Below the pieces are notes generated by a model. It saw only the letters and a list, made by a program, of their open reading frames with translations, was not told the origin of the DNA and did not search any database. This document shows positions 2,457 to 19,706 of a stretch of 20,702 nucleotides of DNA, in pieces (position 1 is the first letter of the stretch; every line of letters starts with the position of its first letter). The DNA is taken from the IMG/VR virus record IMGVR_UViG_3300046787_000126, positions 1-20,702 of that record, one strand, 5' to 3'. A program made the translations under genes and the position numbers. Source of the stretch: a virus.

Positions 2457-3044
2457 TTATAGATTATGTTTAACAATTATTTCTTTTATTTTGTTTATTA
2501 ATTCTTCTTCTTTAATTGCAGATAATTTTTGTTCGTCACTAAAATTGCCTTCAATACTTAAACCTAAATAAGTTCCTGCTTTTACTTCTTTCCAAACTTC
2601 TTCATTTTGAATAGACATTACAACTGCCCAAGCTCCTTCAACTGCATTTAAATTATATATAGCTGTTTTATCTCTTGCAGGGTCTTCAACAATCCAAGAT
2701 TCAACAACAGATACACCATTAACTTCTGTTTCGTGTTCTAATGTAGCGTTATTTACTTTTAGTCTTTTAAGATATAATTGTGCAGCTTTTTTAACTGTAT
2801 CTTTTGAGAAAACAATGTTGTACTCATAATCTCCATTTCTTCTGTAAATTTCTTTATCAGGAACTAAAGCTAATCCAATAATAATCTTCTTTTCTTCATC
2901 AATAGATTTAAACTCTATCTTGTGCTGATTTAAAGCTACCCAATTTTCTTCTATTGCGGGAAATTTAACTAAAGAGATAGCATCAATACCATCTTTTATT
3001 TCACTTTCGTCAATAAACAATTCTATTGTTTCTAATTTTGCCAT
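2457..3044 (-). CDS. Prohead protease, XkdF-like serine protease
   Basis: A 195-aa protein matching the XkdF-type phage serine protease pattern: LEHETEV with His104, then VVESWIVEDP (about 113-122), a GAWAVVMSIQNEEVW segment, and KAGTYLGLSIEG with Ser163. His104 and Ser163 are the likely catalytic residues by analogy with the family. It would cleave scaffold and capsid termini during head maturation; both candidate substrates are encoded just downstream. The ATG at 3044 lies inside the last 13 bases of the upstream GIY-YIG gene; the start MAKLETIELFIDE fits the family N-terminus. In many phages this domain follows or is fused to the portal, but no portal gene precedes it here. Confidence 0.75.
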   Translation of the reverse strand: MAKLETIELFIDESEIKDGIDAISLVKFPAIEENWVALNQHKIEFKSIDEEKKIIIGLALVPDKEIYRRNGDYEYNIVFSKDTVKKAAQLYLKRLKVNNATLEHETEVNGVSVVESWIVEDPARDKTAIYNLNAVEGAWAVVMSIQNEEVWKEVKAGTYLGLSIEGNFSDEQKLSAIKEEELINKIKEIIVKHNL

Positions 3045-3583
3045 TGTAAATTTGTGTTATTATTTTTTTTATTGTTTAACATCGAACTTAATGATGTGTA
3101 ATTTATTTTATAAAAATCAGAAGCTTTTCTTAAAGAATCAAACACTTCATTTGTTTCTAAATTAATAACTTTTTTAGACATTCTGCCTAAAGATGCTATT
3201 TTCATTTTGTCTTTATAATCTTGATTCTGTGTAAATGAATAATCTTTTAAATTTTTATTATAATCAATCATTCTATTTTTTCTTAACTCTCGTTCGGAAT
3301 AATTCATATTTAAAAAACCTTCACCACCATCAGTCATATTTACAAGAAAACCTTTTTTTAAATCTTTCCTACCATAGTAAGATATTAAAATGCGTTCTAA
3401 TTCTCTTGCAGTTTCGTAATCAACATCTTTAGTTAATATTTCAACTTCGTATCCATATTTATTTACTACATTATGCCAATGCTTATTTCTTCCGTGTTTA
3501 GAATATGCTCTTTTTTTAACAACACCAATTCCAATATAAAAGGTTTCTCCGCTTGGTTTTTTGTGTCTATAAACTAAAGCCAT
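3032..3583 (-). CDS. GIY-YIG homing-type endonuclease with NUMOD1 tail
   Basis: A 183-aa freestanding endonuclease. The N-terminal GIY-YIG domain (about 1-90) shows VYRHKKPSGETFYIGIG (residues 4-20, the GIY...YIG equivalents), then RAYSKHGRNKHW with the basic active-site residues, the conserved Glu in ELERILISYYGRKD (about 61-74) and LVNMTDGGEG. A linker with Lys/Arg leads to a C-terminal NUMOD1-like DNA-binding unit (about 138-172, INLETNEVFDSLRKASDFYK). Such proteins cut DNA at specific sites and spread their own gene. It is wedged between tape measure and protease genes, and its last 13 bases contain the protease start codon. Its leader shares 16 identical bases with that of the gene at 9627. 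Endonuclease assignment is firm; target unknown. Confidence 0.85.
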   Translation of the reverse strand: MALVYRHKKPSGETFYIGIGVVKKRAYSKHGRNKHWHNVVNKYGYEVEILTKDVDYETARELERILISYYGRKDLKKGFLVNMTDGGEGFLNMNYSERELRKNRMIDYNKNLKDYSFTQNQDYKDKMKIASLGRMSKKVINLETNEVFDSLRKASDFYKINYTSLSSMLNNKKNNNTNLQWQN

Positions 3584-3622: not shown

Positions 3623-5488
3623 TTAATTTCCTATTGTAGCAGTCTTCACAATATTTCTATCTAAACTTTGAGCAGTAGTTACATCGTTACTTACTACATA
3701 AGCTTTAACAGGTGCTTGATTGCCTAAACTTTGTGCTATTTGATTTTGTCCTGAAGTACCTACTACATTAAAACTTGGAGCAGAAGCAACAGCACCACCT
3801 GAAACTGAAATAGGTGTAGGAGCAGCACCACCACCTCCACCGCCCGGAATTTTAACTGCAGTTATGGCTTTAACCGCTTTAAAACCTGTAGCCAATACAG
3901 TTGCTACGTTTGCTACTTTAGCAACTACATCAAAAGGTGAAGGTAATGTAGACTTTTGCTTTAATGCTTCAGTAACCCCAACATAAGTATTTACGGTAGC
4001 ACTTGCAATACCTAATGCTTTTCCTGCTATTGTATCTTTACCTGCTAATTCAGATAGTTGACCCATAACCGCCGAAGCTTCTCTTGCTTGACCTATTTTA
4101 AATGCGTATTCTTCTTCAGCTAATTTTTTTCTTGCAGCAGTATTTTCTGCTTCAGTTTTAGTTCTTGCTACTGCATTATCAGATTCTTTTGCAAAGTATT
4201 CTAATTCTAATTTATTTAAATTTTCTTTATGAAGTTTATCTAATGCTTCTGTTGATAAATTAGCTGAAATTAATAAAGCTTTTTTTCTTTCATATTCAGC
4301 ATTTTCAGCTTCAACTTTTAATTGATTATCTGTTTTTGTAGAATCAAGATTTTTCTTTTTTATTTCTCTATCTAACTTCTCTATATCTTCTAAATCTTGC
4401 CTTGCTTTTTCAGATTGGTCACGTTGCAATTTGTTTTTAGCAGCATCACGTTCTTCTTGTTCTTTATCAAGTACTTTTCTTGCTTCAGCTTCTTCTTTCC
4501 TTTTAGCAATTCTTTCATCAGCCGCAGCTTTTGCATCAGCAGTTTCTTGTCGATTAAGCATTTTTCTTTGCTTATTCAACTTTATTCCTGTCATTGCATT
4601 TTCAGTTTCTGCTTCATTCAATGCAATAGTTAACTCCCTTAATTCCTGCTTCGATTTCTTTTCTGCTTCGCCACCTAATGCTTTCGCTCTTTCTTTTGCT
4701 ATTCTTAAATCTTCAGCGGCAATCCTAACTTTTTCTGCACTACTTGCTTTTTCTGCTTTTGTTACTTCAGCTAATGCTTTTTTCTTTTCATTAATAGAAG
4801 CAGTTTCATCTGTTAATATTTCACGGGATTGTACAAGTAATTTATTTGTTTCAGATTGAACAACTGCTTGTTGTTTCCTCGCTTTATCTACTGCTTGTTG
4901 TTGCTTTGTTAAATTATAAATAATTTTAGCTGTAGTACCATCAATAGCATTACCAAGTTGACCAAATGATGTAGAAGCTTCTTTATTTGCTTTCTTCATT
5001 GATTCTGCAGCACCTTTAAAATCTAAAGTAATAAACTTATAAGCAGCAGCCGTTACATTTATTAAAGCACGACCCAATCCAAAAATAGCATCTTTAACTT
5101 GGTTACCTACACCTTCAACAGCAGCAAATATTGCTTTTAATTCTTTACCACCTGCAATTGAACTTTGGAATGCTTCATAAAGAAATTTTAAACCAACTAC
5201 AATACCTGTAATAATTAAACCAATAGGATTTGCTACTAAAGCTAAAAATTGTTTTCCCAATCCTGAAGCAGCACCTTCAGCACCTTTTAGTCCGGGAATT
5301 AATGATTCTGCACCTTGTTTTAATTGACCAAATACTTCACCTAATTTAGAACTTTTAGCTACTTCTTCATTTAAGCTACCTGCTTCAGTTTTTACGCCTT
5401 TTAAACTTTCTTTTAATTCATTTACTTTTTTAGAAGCATCAGGTATATTAGTGGTAATTTTTAATTCTACTGTTTTTACTTCAGCCAT
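3623..5488 (-). CDS. Tail tape measure protein
   Basis: A 621-aa protein with the usual tape measure layout: an N-terminal KTVELKITTNI strand, a hydrophobic segment at about 81-107 (FLALVANPIGLIITGIVVGL and onward), a long Ala/Lys/Glu/Gln-rich helical and coiled-coil region (about 150-470), a second Ala/Gly-rich hydrophobic stretch (about 475-550) and a Gly/Pro/Ser-rich tail with a run of six Gly. It sets tail length and takes part in DNA delivery. At about 0.15 nm per residue the tail would be near 90 nm, an estimate only. It lies downstream of the tail chaperone and tail-tip genes, unlike lambda, where it precedes them. The ATG at 5488 overlaps a 49-aa gene by 13 bases. Confidence 0.85.
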   Translation of the reverse strand: MAEVKTVELKITTNIPDASKKVNELKESLKGVKTEAGSLNEEVAKSSKLGEVFGQLKQGAESLIPGLKGAEGAASGLGKQFLALVANPIGLIITGIVVGLKFLYEAFQSSIAGGKELKAIFAAVEGVGNQVKDAIFGLGRALINVTAAAYKFITLDFKGAAESMKKANKEASTSFGQLGNAIDGTTAKIIYNLTKQQQAVDKARKQQAVVQSETNKLLVQSREILTDETASINEKKKALAEVTKAEKASSAEKVRIAAEDLRIAKERAKALGGEAEKKSKQELRELTIALNEAETENAMTGIKLNKQRKMLNRQETADAKAAADERIAKRKEEAEARKVLDKEQEERDAAKNKLQRDQSEKARQDLEDIEKLDREIKKKNLDSTKTDNQLKVEAENAEYERKKALLISANLSTEALDKLHKENLNKLELEYFAKESDNAVARTKTEAENTAARKKLAEEEYAFKIGQAREASAVMGQLSELAGKDTIAGKALGIASATVNTYVGVTEALKQKSTLPSPFDVVAKVANVATVLATGFKAVKAITAVKIPGGGGGGAAPTPISVSGGAVASAPSFNVVGTSGQNQIAQSLGNQAPVKAYVVSNDVTTAQSLDRNIVKTATIGN

Positions 5489-9171: not shown

Positions 9172-9627
9172 TTAGCAAATCGTCATATCATTTTGTGCAA
9201 TCACATTCATCGTAACAGTTACACCTGCAATCTTATTTTCAAATCTGTCTACAAAGTATTCTATACTTGCACCATCCTGCAGTTGGTAACCATCATCAAA
9301 TAAATCACCACGTCTTAACATTTCAAGTAATCTTGTAGCAACCATTTGTTGTGTGTTTAATACATCTTGCTCGTTATCATTACCTAAAAAAATATCAGTA
9401 GTAGCTTCTTTAGATTCATCTACTATATCCATACACAAAACAGAAATACTATAGTTAAAAGTACTTCCGTTATAAGCTGCTGAATTAATCATTATATGTG
9501 ATAAAGGGAATATAGTTTGCTTATTCAAGTCTACTTTGAATATATCACCAATGGTAACAGTATTTACAAAAGCATCGGCATCTAATTGGTCTTTGATTGC
9601 TTGGCTTATTTGGTAAAATCCTTTCAT
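9172..9627 (-). CDS. Putative tail terminator or tail completion protein
   Basis: A 151-aa protein beginning MKGFYQISQAIKDQLDAD. A mixed alpha/beta layout is suggested: helix (about 5-17), NTVTIGDIFKVDLNKQTIFP strand pair, FNYSISVLCMDIVDES strand, then GNDNEQDVLNTQQMVATRLLEMLRRG helix (about 82-107) and a final beta part with DRFENKIAGVTVTM and NDMTIC. Size and position next to the gp10-like protein fit a tail terminator, though similar proteins carry only a hypothetical label. Its ATG overlaps by one base (TAATG) the stop codon of the -1 frameshifted chaperone product, a strong hint that this longer product is real. Role is inference. Confidence 0.5.
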   Translation of the reverse strand: MKGFYQISQAIKDQLDADAFVNTVTIGDIFKVDLNKQTIFPLSHIMINSAAYNGSTFNYSISVLCMDIVDESKEATTDIFLGNDNEQDVLNTQQMVATRLLEMLRRGDLFDDGYQLQDGASIEYFVDRFENKIAGVTVTMNVIAQNDMTIC

Positions 9628-10369
9628 TACTTATTTTTATTTATTAATTTCATTTCTATTTCGGTTTTTTCTTTTTCAAAAGTCAACCAAGTTAAACTTT
9701 GGTGTACGGGTAACTTGGAAACTTCATCAAATCTTCTAACGTTTCCTTGAGCAAGAGCATAGATACTTGAATACCATCCCCAACGTTTTCCAAATTGTGC
9801 TGTTTCAGAATATTCTGCACCTCCGGATTCTCCTCCAAATAGTTTATCGTACTGCTTAATAAGTCGTTCCCTAAATTGTAAAAAAAAACCATAGCACCAA
9901 GAACTACATCCAATGGTGCGTGTTTCATTACATCAGCATAGGTAATAGAACCTTGATATTGTTCTATCTCGTATTTGTTTCCTAACTTATTTGTAATAGG
10001 TCTATACAATACAGCCATTGCATTATGCATAGTGTCCCAATCAGTAATATAATTGTCTAAATCCATATATTCACCTGTAGACATATCGTCAAGGTTAGGT
10101 ATGAATCCAAACTCTACACCACCCATTTTAAATCGTTGTATAAACTTATTTTCTTTGTTGAATAGATTATTAATATTAGTGGTAATTTCAGCTACATCTT
10201 TATACCTAATTTGTGCCACATCTTTTAAATCTATACCACAAAATAATTGCACCATTTTCTGCTGCAAAAATTCAGATTCTTCATTGTCTTTTGCAATAGC
10301 TAAAAACTTTTGATACTGCACCAACTTTATTTCTGATAGCGAAGTTGGTATTTTTAATTCTATCTTCAT
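9627..10369 (-). CDS. Tail assembly chaperone, long form made by -1 frameshift (247 aa)
   Basis: This entry is the transframe product: 163 residues of the zero frame, then slipping at the T9 run and continuing in the -1 frame from 9881 for 84 codons. The extension begins LQFRERLIKQYDKLFGG and contains EYSETAQFGKRWGWY, IYALAQGNVRRFDEV and SLTWLTFEKEKTEIE, clearly protein-like and known to me from Bacteroidota phages. Its stop TAA overlaps the next start codon (TAATG). The -1 frame has no own suitable start, so frameshifting is the simplest way to express it. By analogy with lambda gpG/gpGT the product would help load tail tube subunits on the tape measure. The alternative is that the T-run is miscounted and the gene is a single 248-aa frame. 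Confidence 0.7.
9692..10369 (-). CDS. Tail assembly chaperone, short zero-frame form (225 aa)
   Basis: The unshifted product begins MKIELKIPTSLSEIKLVQY and shows FGFIPNLDDMSTGEYMDLDN and WDTMHNAMAVLYRPI, a pattern common in Bacteroidota phage tail-region proteins. After the FFY at residues 162-164 it continues for 62 codons (including GDGIQVSMLLLKETLEDL) that overlap the -1 frame described separately. Both endings look protein-like, so two products sharing 163 residues are expected. Position between packaging genes and tail genes fits a G-type chaperone, although the tape measure is four genes further downstream rather than adjacent. The gene starts 49 bases after a terminator, and I see no clear promoter in that space. 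Confidence 0.7.
   Translation of the reverse strand: MKIELKIPTSLSEIKLVQYQKFLAIAKDNEESEFLQQKMVQLFCGIDLKDVAQIRYKDVAEITTNINNLFNKENKFIQRFKMGGVEFGFIPNLDDMSTGEYMDLDNYITDWDTMHNAMAVLYRPITNKLGNKYEIEQYQGSITYADVMKHAPLDVVLGAMVFFYNLGNDLLSSTINYLEENPEVQNILKQHNLENVGDGIQVSMLLLKETLEDLMKFPSYPYTKV
9880..9889 (-). promoter_or_regulatory. Programmed -1 ribosomal frameshift site (T9 run)
   Basis: On the minus strand the zero frame reads ATG GTT TTT TTT TAC. The nine T include T TTT TTT in the X XXY YYZ register required for tandem -1 slippage. After slippage the ribosome reads TTA CAA TTT and then 84 codons without a stop up to 9627. I did not establish a downstream pseudoknot or an upstream Shine-Dalgarno-like stimulator. 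Confidence 0.7.
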
Positions 10370-10417
10370 TGTTGTTTTTTCTTTATTAATAAATATTTTA
10401 CATTATTGTATTAAATG

Positions 10418-10448
10418 AAAAAAGGCAGCCATTTCTGACCACCTCTTT
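10418..10448 (-). terminator. Rho-independent terminator before the tail operon
   Basis: On the minus strand GGTGGTC pairs with GGCTGCC (7 bp, three G-T wobbles) around a six-base loop AGAAAT, extended by an A/T pairing and followed by six T. It lies 19 bases after the stop of the 39-aa gene and ends the packaging transcript before the tail genes. Confidence 0.7.
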
Positions 10449-10466
10449 AACCAACTTATTTAAAAC

Positions 10467-10586
10467 TTAATCTTCATCTGCTCGTTCACATTGTTTATCA
10501 CAATATGTTTTCTCACAAGCTTCACCGCAATACCTGCATTCGTTTTCAGGGTATTCGTTTGGGTTTAAAAAATCATACCATTCCAT
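10467..10586 (-). CDS. Small 39-aa cysteine-rich, probable zinc-binding protein
   Basis: A 39-aa gene too short for usual cut-offs, reading MEWYDFLNPNEYPENECRYC and then GEACEKTYCDKQCERADED. The five Cys (17, 20, 24, 29, 33) form a CxxC plus CxxxC arrangement of zinc-ribbon type inside an otherwise acidic protein. It has a promoter-like element 12-33 bases upstream and a terminator directly downstream, so it could be a separate, short transcription unit. It lies between the terminase gene pair and the tail genes. Function unknown; DNA or RNA polymerase interaction is a possible role for such small zinc proteins, but nothing in the sequence shows it. Confidence 0.6.
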   Translation of the reverse strand: MEWYDFLNPNEYPENECRYCGEACEKTYCDKQCERADED

Positions 10587-10597
10587 AATTATATTTG

Positions 10598-10619
10598 TTT
10601 AATGTTATAGCAAATATAA
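10598..10619 (-). promoter_or_regulatory. Candidate promoter element (TATATTTG type) before the 39-aa gene
   Basis: The minus strand has TATATTTG at 10611-10618, matching the Bacteroidota -7 consensus TAnnTTTG. The 22-base stretch at 10598-10619 agrees at 20 positions with 15419-15440, where a full promoter is visible. A TTG at the proper -33 distance is missing here (the nearest is about 30 bases upstream), so activity is uncertain. Confidence 0.4.
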
Positions 10620-10662
10620 CACAAAAATTAAACGTGTTAACATTTTACCAAAACTTTAACAT

Positions 10663-10812
10663 TTACACTTTCAAATATTCTTCAGCAATTAAATACATTT
10701 TCTGCATCTTTTTTATTTCACCAATGTTTCTCGGTAAATTAATTGATACTTCAATCCCTTTAACGTGGTGAATGTAACATTGAATAGTTGCTATGATTTG
10801 TGCGTATGTCAT
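10663..10812 (-). CDS. Small 49-aa protein behind the large terminase
   Basis: A 49-aa gene reading MTYAQIIATIQCYIHHVKGI at the start and KKMQKMYLIAEEYLKV at the end. Its ATG overlaps the terminase stop by one base (TAATG), the same coupling used throughout this phage, which supports it despite its size. The protein is basic and probably two helices joined by a loop (EVSINLPRNIGE). No known motif. Because it is coupled to the large terminase it may take part in packaging, but that is only positional inference. Confidence 0.6.
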   Translation of the reverse strand: MTYAQIIATIQCYIHHVKGIEVSINLPRNIGEIKKMQKMYLIAEEYLKV

Positions 10813-12017
10813 TAGTAAACGTAATAAGTTCCTTTGTTTGGATTCTCTAATTGATATGATACAATATATCTTAAAGCATCTATTAAGTGATTATGGTTGT
10901 CTATTGGTGTATTAGATTTCTTTTCTAACCAACAGTAGTTATTTAGTTCCTTGATTAAATTAATAGATTCAGGTGTAACTATCAAATCATAATCTTGTAA
11001 TAAAGCTATTCCAAATGTAACAGAACCCTGTCCTTTAATTGCAGGTACTATATTCAATCCTGCAGTTTGTAATTCAGATATTAATCTTGGTTCAGCACTA
11101 TCAGCTACAATCAAACTATCCAAGCAATGCTGTTTATTTAATTGATAAATCTGTGATGTAGTTAATGCAGGTAAGCAATACCTTTCGTTGATGTATATCT
11201 TCTTATTAGCTGTGTCTATATTACATTCTACTAATGTAGTTGGGTCATTACTAAATCCAAAATCCTGACCAAATGCTGATGCACCTACTTGTTTGTATTC
11301 TCCTATGGTCCAATTGTTAAAGATTACACCTTCAGCTTTGTCTAACCATCCACCAAGAATTTGATGCTTATACTTTTCAGGCCTTCTTTGCTTGATGTTT
11401 TCTATTTGGCTTATAAAAGATTCTGATAGGTTTTCTATATTATCTAAATACGTTGTGTGAATGTAAGTAGTATCACCTTTGATTAAATTGCTTCCTGCTT
11501 GGATTCCTTTGTCTTCAAAGAATTTCTTATATATGAAGTGTTCTTTTGTTGCAGGATTCAGTACAAGTAGCACTCTATTCTGTACACCTTTAGTTCTAAT
11601 ACTGAAGTCTATCTTTTCAAATACTTCTTCATCTGTTAGTTCTTCAGCTTCATCCAATACCCAAGTAGTTACACCTGCCAAAGATTTCAAACTTGCAGTC
11701 TGTGTTCCGCTGCTTGTTTTAATCCCTTTAAAGATGATTTTAGACCCTGTTTTAAGATTTACTATCTCATCCTTCGTAATATAAAAATCGTTGCTTAAAT
11801 CAGCTGATTCTATCTTGTCTATAAATTCAGGAATGATAGATACATTTGCAGATGTCAAAGTGTAACGTGTAAATAGTATAACGTGTCCTACTTCATAAGT
11901 TAACAATAGCAGGAACGAGTTCAAAGAATATGATTTCCCTGAACCCCTTCCACCTGTTATTACAAAGTACCTACTATCTGAACCAAGTAGATTGTATTTG
12001 TTATTTAGACTTATCAA
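10812..12017 (-). CDS. terL: Terminase large subunit
   Basis: A 401-aa packaging motor. The N-terminal ATPase has Walker A GGRGSGKS (22-29), Walker B VLDEAEE (120-126) and the coupling motif LNPAT (153-157). The C-terminal RNase H-like nuclease shows Asp252 in AFGQDFGFSNDP, Asp306 in IVADSAEP and Asp380 in HLIDALRYIV, the three metal-binding acids. The pattern is that of the PBSX/Terminase_3 type. It would dock on the portal, pump DNA into the prohead and cut the concatemer. Its start overlaps the end of the small subunit gene by 17 bases. Length and all key residues are normal, so the gene appears intact. Confidence 0.93.
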   Translation of the reverse strand: MISLNNKYNLLGSDSRYFVITGGRGSGKSYSLNSFLLLLTYEVGHVILFTRYTLTSANVSIIPEFIDKIESADLSNDFYITKDEIVNLKTGSKIIFKGIKTSSGTQTASLKSLAGVTTWVLDEAEELTDEEVFEKIDFSIRTKGVQNRVLLVLNPATKEHFIYKKFFEDKGIQAGSNLIKGDTTYIHTTYLDNIENLSESFISQIENIKQRRPEKYKHQILGGWLDKAEGVIFNNWTIGEYKQVGASAFGQDFGFSNDPTTLVECNIDTANKKIYINERYCLPALTTSQIYQLNKQHCLDSLIVADSAEPRLISELQTAGLNIVPAIKGQGSVTFGIALLQDYDLIVTPESINLIKELNNYCWLEKKSNTPIDNHNHLIDALRYIVSYQLENPNKGTYYVY

Positions 12018-12917: not shown

Positions 12918-13105
12918 AATCCTTTTTCTTTTTTGAATTTATCTAATGTATCATCTTTTAATTTCAATCCACTCTCACCTAACGACCTGTTTAATACCCA
13001 TTCGGCAAACTCAATAGCGTAATCATCTGCTATTGCCATAAATGTTTCGTGCGGGTCTTGGTCATCGTAATTCTTGATTACTTCTAATTTTTCTTTTAGT
13101 GTCAT
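12914..13105 (-). CDS. Small 63-aa protein of unknown function
   Basis: A 63-aa, acidic and probably helical protein: MTLKEKLEVIKNYDDQDPHE, then a central ADDYAIEFAEWVLNRS and a Lys-rich end. Its ATGA start overlaps the stop of the DnaA-like gene, and its end overlaps the 70-aa gene in the same way, so it belongs to the replication and packaging operon. No motif that assigns a function. Confidence 0.65.
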   Translation of the reverse strand: MTLKEKLEVIKNYDDQDPHETFMAIADDYAIEFAEWVLNRSLGESGLKLKDDTLDKFKKEKGL

Positions 13106-13578
13106 AATCTTATATTTTTATTCATTGAATAGAATGCTTCTAACCTTAAAGTGATTAACTCGTGTTGTTCTGTTCCTTTAGTAGCTTCTAATAGGTTGTT
13201 TAGGTTTTCAATTATTTTGTATTCGTATCTTGGTGCATTCAATTGCTTTTCTAAATCGTGCAGCTTCTTCTTAAAGATGTCTTCTTGTGATAGTTCTTGT
13301 TCTACTTCACCGCCCAATAGTTTTAAGATTAAATTCTTGCAATCTAATATCTTTGGATTGTATGTTTCATATACTTGAAAGTTCTTTAATGAATGTACTA
13401 CTGTAGCGTGATTCATTTCGAAGTCTGATGCTATAGATTGTAAGCTTCTTTTCTTATATAGCTTTCTTACTAAATAGAAGTATAATGCTCTACCTTCAAT
13501 TATTTCTCGCTTCCTGCAAGTTTCTGTTATATCTACTTTTAGTTCTCTTAAAATTAATTCTTTTATTTGATTTTCCAT
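13102..13578 (-). CDS. DnaA domain IV-like DNA-binding protein
   Basis: A 158-aa protein. Residues about 24-68 (REIIEGRALYFYLVRKLYKK, SLQSIASDFEMNHATVVHSL) match the C-terminal DNA-binding domain of DnaA, where the NHATVVHSL segment is the signature helix that inserts in the DnaA box. There is no AAA+ ATPase part. The C-terminal half (about 85-158) is a helical, charged region that may dimerise. The protein may bind the phage origin or regulate replication in the absence of a full initiator. The gene starts inside the last 16 bases of the HNH gene, so it lost its own leader or acquired the HNH gene upstream. Confidence 0.7.
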   Translation of the reverse strand: MENQIKELILRELKVDITETCRKREIIEGRALYFYLVRKLYKKRSLQSIASDFEMNHATVVHSLKNFQVYETYNPKILDCKNLILKLLGGEVEQELSQEDIFKKKLHDLEKQLNAPRYEYKIIENLNNLLEATKGTEQHELITLRLEAFYSMNKNIRL

Positions 13579-16423: not shown

Positions 16424-16775
16424 CTATTCTTAAAAATTCAGCTTGTCCGTATTCCAAGAACCATTCTTTGTTTTCTTTATACTTTTCAATAACTGCATTA
16501 ATCATTACAAGTTCATCTAAATCTGAAGTAGTTAATTTTATAACTATGTCTTCAATGCTGTTTAGAATGTTTGTAGTCATTTCTGCATCAGCTTTATAAA
16601 TCTTTCTGTATTCATCATATACTGTACTTTCAAGGTGTAATATCACTTTGTTAAGTAAATGCTTTAAAGCACCGTTATATTGCTTTGTGTAACGTAAATT
16701 TTCATTACATTCTAAAAGAAGTTGTGATAGTAATACACTCTTTAAATATTCTAATTGTATTGGGTTATTGTTCAT
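16416..16775 (-). CDS. 119-aa helical protein of unknown function
   Basis: A 119-aa protein that appears all-helical: YLKSVLLSQLLLECNENLRY, KHLLNKVILHLESTVYDEYR, then NILNSIEDIVIKLTTSDLDE and KENKEWFLEYGQ. No membrane segment, no metal-binding or catalytic motif. Similar helical proteins exist in Bacteroidota phages without an assigned role. It overlaps the nuclease gene by 11 bases and so may be translated with it. Confidence 0.65.
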   Translation of the reverse strand: MNNNPIQLEYLKSVLLSQLLLECNENLRYTKQYNGALKHLLNKVILHLESTVYDEYRKIYKADAEMTTNILNSIEDIVIKLTTSDLDELVMINAVIEKYKENKEWFLEYGQAEFLRIDG

Positions 16776-17424
16776 TGTTCTGATTTATTAAATTAGTTAA
16801 TAGTAAGTTTATTTGATTGAAAACATTTTGCTTGTCAAATAGTTCATCTTTTTCGTAATAGATTAAGAAATGCGGCACTCCATAAGTTAGCTTGTATAAT
16901 TCCCTTTGCTTGTTATGATTGTCTTTAGCTTTTAGTTGGTATGGGTTACTCATATATTTATAAGTAATTGGTTTAATCTGTAAACCTAAAATTAAAATAC
17001 CATTAGAAAAGCATTCGAAATCTGTAAAGTATTGTTCATCCTTGTTATAATCTGCTTTTTCAAAAGTTAAGTTTGGGAATTGCTCTTGCAGTTCTTTTAC
17101 CAAAGCTATTTCATTTAGCATTCCATTCCAAGTTTGACCTATTATCCTGTGTTTAACGTATGCAAAAGAATCATTAATATCTAATGAAGTAATAGCTAAA
17201 GATGTATTAGCTAATACCTTTGGGTATCGTTCTAAATAATATTCGTACCATTCACTACTATCTATTTGCTCTACTGATTTATAATAGTCATCAAATAGCT
17301 TTGCACATTTTCCTACTTTGTCGCTCCTGAACAAGCTATTAATAGCAGGTTCTTTATTTAATTGCCTATAAACTTTATCATCTATAGGCATATCAAATCT
17401 ATAACTACTGTACTTGATATTCAT
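16765..17424 (-). CDS. MjaI-like restriction endonuclease (probable)
   Basis: A 219-aa protein resembling the MjaI restriction family in the order of its conserved parts: RSDKVGKCAKLFDDYY, SSEWYEYYLERYPKVLANT (about 55-73), IIGQTWNGMLNEIALVKELQ, then KDEQYFTDFECF and LQIKPITYKY before FLIYYEKDELF. The second to last pieces would give a D...QxK variant of the PD-(D/E)XK active site. MjaI recognises CTAG, and I found no CTAG in this window. No cognate methyltransferase is adjacent; a cytosine-5 methyltransferase lies 1.4 kb upstream. The protein might degrade host or competing phage DNA. The family call is from memory of the pattern and is not proven. Confidence 0.5.
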   Translation of the reverse strand: MNIKYSSYRFDMPIDDKVYRQLNKEPAINSLFRSDKVGKCAKLFDDYYKSVEQIDSSEWYEYYLERYPKVLANTSLAITSLDINDSFAYVKHRIIGQTWNGMLNEIALVKELQEQFPNLTFEKADYNKDEQYFTDFECFSNGILILGLQIKPITYKYMSNPYQLKAKDNHNKQRELYKLTYGVPHFLIYYEKDELFDKQNVFNQINLLLTNLINQNNEQ

Positions 17425-17785
17425 TAAATACTTTTCTTAAATCGTTAATAATATCTCTCCAACAAGAAGCACAATTACTATCATCTAATTTTACTTCAAA
17501 TACTCTAAAGTAAATAGCTTGTATTTGCCATTGTTCGTTTGGTGTTAAACTACCTTTCTTTGGTGATACAAAAGGTTTTAAAGCTTCATAGTCTGATTCA
17601 GTTAAGCAATTAACTTTTCTTCTATATGGAATTAAGTTATTTAGTTTTGCTTTTCGTTCTTCGCATTTGCAATCTACTCCGGTAACTTTGCTAAATGTTT
17701 CTACAACTTTTTTAATTCCGGTTGCTTCTGTAATTTGCTCTATGGTATCTCCTAAACCACGAGCAGGTGTTTTTCTTTTTGCCAT
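17405..17785 (-). CDS. Cysteine-rich 126-aa protein, probable zinc-binding
   Basis: A 126-aa protein beginning MAKRKTPARGLGDTIEQITE, with ATGIKKVVETFSKVTG, then Cys39 and Cys41 in DCKCEERKAKLN, Cys60, and Cys105/Cys108 in DDSNCASCWRDI. The first 50 residues (ARGLGDTIE...DCKCEERKAKLN) form a signature that recurs in many Bacteroidota phages without a known role. The paired Cys suggest a zinc site. It overlaps the nuclease gene by 20 bases and begins at a TAATG overlap with the sigma-like gene; the partnership with sigma may mean a role in transcription. Function unknown. Confidence 0.7.
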   Translation of the reverse strand: MAKRKTPARGLGDTIEQITEATGIKKVVETFSKVTGVDCKCEERKAKLNNLIPYRRKVNCLTESDYEALKPFVSPKKGSLTPNEQWQIQAIYFRVFEVKLDDSNCASCWRDIINDLRKVFNEYQVQ

Positions 17786-18324
17786 TAGTACATCATATTA
17801 TAGTCGTTATTAATATATTCTTGATAATCATTCTCAAATTTTTCTTTCAAAATAATCTTATAATTCTTAATTGAATTAAATATTGAAATCAAACTAATAT
17901 TAGTTTCTTTAGCTATATCACGCATAGATAAATCTGTGTCCCTGTATAGTTTAAATAGTTTTCTATCGTACCAATCCCAATTCTTTATTTCTTCATCTAT
18001 CAACATACATATGTCGTTATATGCCTTGTGTTCTTCTATATTTGAATCATCGAATAATTCCCAACACCCATCAAAAGAAACTTTGTTAATCTTTTTCTTT
18101 TTGTTATAGTATTGATAAAATAAAGAACGTAGTGTGAAATAAACGTAACCCTTTCGAACTTCTCCATTAGCATCTAAAAGCTTTTCAGCATCAGCATACT
18201 TCCACAAAGCTATGTATGTTTCTTGTACAATATCTTGTGCGTAATCATATTCCCCAAATGATTGAACTACTTTAATCCAATCTTGATGATATTCTGCTAC
18301 TTTAGCTAACCAAGAATTATCCAT
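17785..18324 (-). CDS. Phage-encoded sigma-70-like (ECF-type) factor
   Basis: A 179-aa protein with the two domains of a short sigma factor. Region 2 shows YAQDIVQETYIALWKY (about 28-43), the typical core-binding helix, then a promoter-opening part with YFTLRSLFYQYYNKKKK. Region 4 (about 121-163) is a helix-turn-helix: RKLFKLYRDTDLSMRDIAKE, then SLISIFNSIKNYK. It would redirect host RNA polymerase to phage promoters, perhaps late virion genes, whose leaders lack the TATATTTG motif. It may also be a terminase-like or regulatory relative of sigma, a common ambiguity for phage proteins. It overlaps the small membrane protein gene by 8 bases. Confidence 0.7.
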   Translation of the reverse strand: MDNSWLAKVAEYHQDWIKVVQSFGEYDYAQDIVQETYIALWKYADAEKLLDANGEVRKGYVYFTLRSLFYQYYNKKKKINKVSFDGCWELFDDSNIEEHKAYNDICMLIDEEIKNWDWYDRKLFKLYRDTDLSMRDIAKETNISLISIFNSIKNYKIILKEKFENDYQEYINNDYNMMY

Positions 18325-18848: not shown

Positions 18849-19706
18849 TTAACAATGTATAAAGCTAAAAATATGTTCAATTATTGGTAATGTCCAACCA
18901 TCACCTAAAAGACTACCTGCGTGTTTAGTTGATAGTATGTCACAATAGTCATCAGTAAAACCTTGTAGTCTGCACATTTCTATTTTATTTGGTAACCTAC
19001 TTTCTTTACTTGATTCGTAAATAATCTGCATCATTCCCATTCTATACCTTTTTTCGTATTTGTCAAAATCTAATGCAGGTTTTTTAGTGTAATATCCTTC
19101 TAACAAACATAAACTTTTATCTCTATCTACAAATCCACTTGTGATAATATCTTTAAACATTATTGCTCTATCTTTTGGTTGTGGTATATCGGTCATAATA
19201 TCGCCAAACATACCATCTTCTTTTGTCCTAATGTTACTCCAATAATATCTATCTCTTAATTGTGCAGTTACCAAGCTACTATTTATTCTTACGGGATATA
19301 CACCTAAAGCTCTTGACATAATACCTACATCTTCCTTTCTTGCACTACCAACATTTTCCTGCAGAAACAATACATTAGGATTTAAAGATTTTATATGTTC
19401 TAATATTTCAACAAATGTAAAGAACAAACTTGACTTCTTGCCATTTATACCTGCACGTTTTCCTGCAGCAGATAAATCTTGACAAGGTGAACCTGATAAA
19501 ACTAAATCAATACTTTTCCAATCTATATCCCATTCTTTCCATTTAGTAACATCACCAACTTGAATAGTATCAGGAAAATGATGTTGTGTTAATTCAATAG
19601 CGTATGGTTTAATTTCGCTTGAATAATATTTTTCTACTTTGATGCCTACATTTTCTAATGCTTGGCGTCCTGTATTCATTCCGTTAAATAATGATAGTAC
19701 ATTCAT
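18849..19706 (-). CDS. DNA (cytosine-5) methyltransferase
   Basis: A 285-aa enzyme that methylates carbon 5 of cytosine using S-adenosylmethionine. Motif I is VLSLFNGMNTG (3-13), the catalytic Cys75 is in GSPCQDLS (motif IV, 73-79), ENVG (117-120) is motif VI, QLRDRYYW (149-156) motif VIII and GDGWTLPII (268-276) motif X. The length is short, with a small target-recognition region between about 160 and 240. All catalytic motifs are intact. No adjacent cognate endonuclease is present, so it may be a solitary protective methylase; the MjaI-like nuclease gene lies 1.4 kb downstream. Target sequence cannot be read from the gene. The ATG at 19706 follows the ATPase stop by 2 bases. Confidence 0.92.
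   Translation of the reverse strand: MNVLSLFNGMNTGRQALENVGIKVEKYYSSEIKPYAIELTQHHFPDTIQVGDVTKWKEWDIDWKSIDLVLSGSPCQDLSAAGKRAGINGKKSSLFFTFVEILEHIKSLNPNVLFLQENVGSARKEDVGIMSRALGVYPVRINSSLVTAQLRDRYYWSNIRTKEDGMFGDIMTDIPQPKDRAIMFKDIITSGFVDRDKSLCLLEGYYTKKPALDFDKYEKRYRMGMMQIIYESSKESRLPNKIEMCRLQGFTDDYCDILSTKHAGSLLGDGWTLPIIEHIFSFIHC

Follow-up and report, generated by a model that had tools for sequence, protein, structure and literature searches.

The window, by which we mean the whole stretch of 20,702 bases analyzed here (IMG/VR virus record IMGVR_UViG_3300046787_000126), carries its genes on the minus strand. One of them is an open reading frame of 225 aa (10369-9692, minus strand) with homologues in a 101-member alignment, and it contains, in its second half, a run of nine T (9888-9880); no other A/T run in the window is as long. 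The codons at this site read GTT TTT TTT TAC, and the heptamer T TTT TTT, of the form X XXY YYZ, lies in the zero-frame slippage register at 9887-9881; any run of nine T always holds an in-frame T TTT TTT. Beyond the site the zero frame continues as a conserved tail of 62 codons, and the -1 frame has 84 open codons followed by a stop (9881-9627, minus strand), encoding a domain with the motif FLxFR...WGWY. The stop codon of this extension (TAA, 9629-9627) overlaps the ATG of the next gene (9627-9625) in a TAATG (9625..9629, minus strand), and a gap of 64 bases separates the zero-frame stop from the same ATG. The earliest start codon in the extension is a TTG at residue 67. The original prediction of an in-register heptamer, an open -1 frame of 84 codons without a start of its own, a TAATG overlap and a 64-base gap was thus borne out by the sequence. 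A product joined at the run would comprise a 163-residue N-terminal part and the 84-residue extension, 247 aa in all, to be set beside the short, gpG-like protein of the zero frame. AlphaFold models had pLDDT values of 81 for the zero-frame protein and 87 for the extension, which is predicted to be helical.

Upstream of the gene lies the terminase large subunit (10812..12017, minus strand; phrog_2, E 1e-43), and downstream a tail-module neighbor of 151 aa (9172..9627, minus strand; phrog_30964, unknown); four genes separate the frameshift gene from the tape measure protein (3623..5488, minus strand; phrog_1538 and phrog_9483). The window corresponds to the first part of the gene order found in a 33 kb relative, in which the terminase large subunit and the frameshift gene are followed by proteins of 152, 180, 352 and 651 aa, the tape measure, a protease, a major capsid protein candidate, a 175 aa protein, the portal and the tail fibre. 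The frameshift gene therefore sits in a tail module, but one without the lambda order.

The identity of the product was approached through family, profile and fold matches. All 101 relatives matched phrog_32199, while the N-terminal part matched phrog_166, a tail protein family, in 14 of the 101 (best 1.3e-4); P2 gpE itself matches phrog_166 at 4e-7. Two relatives weakly matched Pfam Phage_TAC_7 (best 0.006), and Foldseek weakly matched a viral protein that bears the name tail assembly chaperone (prob 0.91, E 0.09). Nothing credible was found in PDB by fold or by sequence, and chaperone homology received no support when the zero-frame family was compared with P2 gpE relatives by hhalign. The gene had originally been called a tail chaperone. 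Weak family matches, context and architecture speak for this name, whereas gene order of the lambda type and the hhalign comparison with P2 gpE do not; on balance, we consider a role in tail assembly as a chaperone probable. A further Foldseek match, in Flavobacterium phage 6H, was left unused, as the frames round its gene are disordered by two changes. In this phage (L392), the protein whose fold resembles that of the zero-frame product, BFVD R9VW65, was assigned by its length to the gene at 10048-10960 (minus strand). Its downstream part is in two other frames, and either the recoding layout differs or the record contains sequencing errors.

A scan of viral contigs seeded with the extension gave 317 relatives, 80 of which were kept. 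All 80 carry nine T, and in all except L046, a broken contig end, the zero frame stays open beyond the site and the -1 frame carries the extension. Viral-contig scans with increasingly distant seeds, together with a genome scan, brought the total to 588 extension-bearing sequences including the window, in a family that reaches down to about 25% identity. Of these, 449 are distinct at the slip site, and in these the extension is found in the -1 frame at the same position. When only the N-terminal part was used for searching, leaving the site untouched, nine T were present at every locus that spanned it. The suggestion that the extension resembles a conserved protein is well supported by these hundreds of homologues. 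Two cultured Nonlabens phages, P12024L and P12024S, are among the relatives. The homologue in P12024L, which follows the terminase and is about 30% identical, shows the same layout around CTT TTT TTT TAT; both the T9 site and the -1 extension were seen directly in its sequence, and in P12024S the extension was matched. In the cultured phages the gene is annotated as two hypothetical proteins (gp40-gp41 in P12024L), with the frameshift unrecognized. Three further matches occur in metagenome-assembled genomes of Bacteroidetes or Flavobacterium, consistent with a Bacteroidota host.

Where the two frames overlap (9695..9880, minus strand), both are translated. Across 90 pairs of closely related sequences, the differences per site reached 0.352 at third positions of the region coding in the zero frame only and 0.327 at extension third positions beyond the zero-frame stop. 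Within the overlap they were 0.155, 0.082 and 0.158 at extension positions 1, 2 and 3, and the third frame there is full of stops. Since neither frame has free wobble positions in the overlap, we conclude that both are translated. The stretch directly 3′ of the T run, ACAATTTAGGGAACGACTTA (9860..9879, minus strand), is conserved at the nucleotide level, and 16 of its bases, TTTAGGGAACGACTTA, are identical between the window and P12024L; this conservation likely reflects the double coding. Purifying selection on both frames of the overlap, together with the 449 distinct relatives, rules out chance. The comparative evidence makes it almost certain that the frame changes at the nine-T run and that both frames are expressed.

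The slip site itself was compared across the 449 distinct sites. Nine T occur in 413, ten in 21 and twelve in 1, so that 435 sites have nine T or more; a further 13 have A AAT TTT, and 1 has five T. Runs of seven or eight T were absent from the 449 sites, as were T TTT TTC/A/G interruptions from the 435 T-run sites, and after clustering at 70% identity, 87 of 89 clusters had only runs of at least nine. The run is found in all three codon registers, namely GTT TTT TTT Tnn, GGT/TAT/GAT TTT TTT TTG and CTG TTT TTT TTT GTG. Counted as T's before/after a core of six, the sites are 2/1 (366), 1/2 (24), 3/0 (23), 2/2 (20), 3/1 (1) and 2/4 (1), and never 1/1, 2/0 or 1/0 in the 435. Along the tree, 11 changes of register state were counted, and the run keeps at least nine T through all of them. 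The accompanying Fisher tests were uncorrected for relatedness, and strict pairing on the tree leaves 2-4 independent pairs, too few for significance.

Part of this pattern may come from protein constraint. In the commonest register, the residues V/L-F-F-Y/W combined with a required T TTT TTT imply nine T. The codon following the run in the common registers encodes Y, W, C, S or L, with only its first T in common, and the register changes are not accounted for by such constraint. Under a codon null that kept the amino acids constant, 64% of runs reached nine or more wherever a T TTT TTN heptamer was present; we gave this null no weight, as with these residues a strict T TTT TTT already implies nine T. 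Elsewhere in these phages long runs are scarce, with 7 A9 runs seen against 66 expected from synonymous shuffles of 1,686 other genes, and 8 T8 runs against 35. Avoidance of long runs has also been reported for bacteria (Baranov et al., 2005; PMC1088944).

The 13 distinct A AAT TTT sequences (L204, L206, L207, L210, L214, L223 and others) form a clade nested within the T-run lineages on the tree. Their site reads GTA AAT TTT AT[TA] TAC, with the heptamer one codon upstream and at most four consecutive T, and they keep the same extension. Lacking the T run, this clade must shift by means of the ribosome, so that either one ribosomal mechanism serves the whole family or the level of recoding was switched once. 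L254 (IMGVR_UViG_3300013132_000746) stands alone among the relatives in lacking both a run of nine T and a canonical heptamer; its site is TTG CTT TTT ATG CAG, with five T, and its extension is still in the -1 frame. Stem-loop analysis detected no such structure in the RNA upstream or downstream of the site, with mean z of -0.01 at T-run sites (n = 101) and 0.26 at A AAT TTT sites (n = 9). A stimulatory stem-loop or pseudoknot downstream is common in -1 ribosomal frameshifting, although some sites do without one.

In bacteria, runs of nine A or T slip efficiently (PMC5009743, PMC1088944), in vivo at the level of RNA polymerase (PMC5009743), and in mxiE an inserted U gives access to a longer product (PMC1088944). 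The reading that we prefer for the present gene is of this kind. Most copies of the protein would end in the zero frame as the 225 aa gpG-like product, and presumably a minority would consist of the first 163 residues joined to the extension, a gpGT-like protein. At the nine-T run, RNA polymerase would insert one extra U in part of the transcripts, ordinary translation of which would read into the extension, with T TTT TTT possibly adding some ribosomal slippage. In the nested clade, the T run would have been lost and A AAT TTT taken up with a ribosomal shift; the family would thus have moved between levels of recoding, as in dnaX, with the two proteins unchanged. The invariant run of at least nine T, the freedom of its register and the absence of structure suggest polymerase slippage, which in our judgment has even or marginally better than even odds of being the main route in the T9 phages. 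For the overall explanation, that is, a two-product gene working by polymerase slippage at T9 with a ribosomal swap in one clade, we estimate a probability of roughly 0.53. The wider proposition, in which a large Bacteroidota phage family controls the ratio between its two tail-chaperone products by this mechanism and one clade has swapped to A AAT TTT, comes very close to an even chance without quite reaching it.

Alternatively, -1 ribosomal frameshifting may operate throughout, by tandem tRNA slipping on T TTT TTT and, in one clade, on A AAT TTT, with the length of nine T following from amino-acid constraint plus the heptamer. This is a serious possibility, although it falls below even odds. 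A zero-frame X XXY YYZ heptamer is in place at every T-run site and, as the canonical A AAT TTT with no more than four T in a row, in the nested clade, for which one ribosomal mechanism across the family is the simplest account; CTT TTT A in L254 is compatible with a weaker motif of the ribosomal kind. Ribosomal shifting is the known route in tail chaperone genes (PMC5009743). In addition, the avoidance of runs in other genes could reflect replication slippage. On the other hand, a heptamer needs only seven T, yet seven- and eight-T runs and interrupted runs are absent from the T-run sites; registers change while at least nine T persist, downstream structure is not conserved, and there are just two main site types in a family this divergent. 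Conservation of a run of at least nine by length rather than by register, as expected for transcriptional slippage, holds for the T-run sites but not for the family as a whole, given the A AAT TTT sequences and L254. The original prediction of a programmed -1 frameshift therefore stands as regards the frame change, which is strongly supported; as to its ribosomal route, run length, register and lack of structure favor RNA polymerase and the A AAT TTT clade favors the ribosome. Routes other than polymerase or ribosomal slipping retain very little probability.

It is very unlikely that the extension is a separate gene expressed by internal initiation or re-initiation, as implied by the annotation of P12024L gp41 from an internal ATG. 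Its conservation begins right at the slip site, the window offers no start ahead of residue 67, and among the 449 relatives 411 have no ATG ahead of the WGW motif and 247 have no ATG, GTG or TTG there. Less likely still is a sequencing error, a recent frameshift mutation or a phase-variable DNA switch in a single-frame gene: homopolymer runs are indeed error-prone and mutable and some BFVD proteins resemble in-frame fusions, but an identical T9 occurs in 413 distinct sequences and two cultured phages, no contig among the 449 has both parts fused in one frame, and the zero-frame tail is also under selection within the overlap. The relatives and the dual-coding selection exclude both sequencing error and a pseudogene, and the alternative of ten T in a plain single frame fails, as it is T9 and not T10 that is conserved, the two cultured phages included. 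The BFVD proteins in question, several single-ORF viral proteins of 226-267 aa that match both AlphaFold models, may be natural fusions of the two parts in other phages.

Several other genes were noticed. A candidate homing endonuclease of the GIY-YIG type follows the tape measure in the window (3032-3583, minus strand; recognized by eye, without a Pfam match), and another follows the capsid gene in the relative L391 (2984-3541; phrog_314, E 9e-29), in both cases within the structural module but at different places. A match to MjaI-type restriction endonucleases (16765-17424, minus strand; E 1e-8) and a C5 cytosine methylase (18849-19706, minus strand; E 3e-26) share one early region and could possibly constitute a phage-borne restriction-modification pair. 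A small protein with the DnaA C-terminal DNA-binding domain (13102-13578, minus strand; Pfam Bac_DnaA_C, E 2e-10) may possibly be a replication initiator or a decoy of the host origin. The product of 17785-18324 (minus strand) combines a match to Sigma-70 region 2 (E 9e-5, slightly short of the Pfam cut-off) with one to an HTH (E 9e-6), and P12024L gp35 is annotated likewise; the protein could direct host RNA polymerase, which bears on the question of slippage.

Frameshifting in tail chaperone genes is a textbook case of ribosomal recoding in phages, and to our knowledge the experimentally described examples are all ribosomal. In the literature searched, which covered few subscription journals, transcriptional slippage was not described for any tail chaperone gene, nor was the present frameshift reported from Bacteroidota phages. 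Hundreds of metagenomic phages can now be properly annotated at this locus, and P12024L and P12024S provide cultured test systems. If the slip site acts transcriptionally, the level of recoding would be interchangeable within one gene, as has been argued so far mainly from dnaX.

As in lambda gpG/gpGT and P2 gpE/E+E′, the gene described here has two predicted products with a common N-terminus and a C-terminal -1 extension, and the extension stop overlaps or abuts the next gene; the one-base overlap of the TAATG type is found in 185 of 438 relatives. The resemblance to lambda gpG/gpGT that had been proposed thus holds for the shared N-terminal part and the -1 extension but not for gene order, as the lambda gene lies between the major tail protein and the tape measure and the present one directly after the terminase. 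With P2 gpE the family shares phrog_166 in the 14 relatives mentioned above, but has no direct profile match to it. The long conserved zero-frame tail and a slip site of at least nine T differ from both lambda and P2, and the nine-T rule together with its replacement by A AAT TTT sets the family apart from known frameshifts of the lambda G/GT type. Cases of transcriptional slippage, in Shigella mxiE (a U run), Thermus dnaX (A9) and Citrobacter tssM1 (A11), likewise involve a homopolymer of about nine or more A/T, a product frame reached through one inserted base and no accompanying RNA structure; by contrast, the present site belongs to a phage tail gene, was read at the DNA level and has a related clade that uses a ribosomal heptamer. 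A further parallel may be dnaX, in which one pair of products is obtained by ribosomal frameshifting in E. coli and by transcriptional slippage in Thermus. In the present case, both levels would possibly occur within a single phage family, the T-run lineages apparently enclosing the clade that switched.
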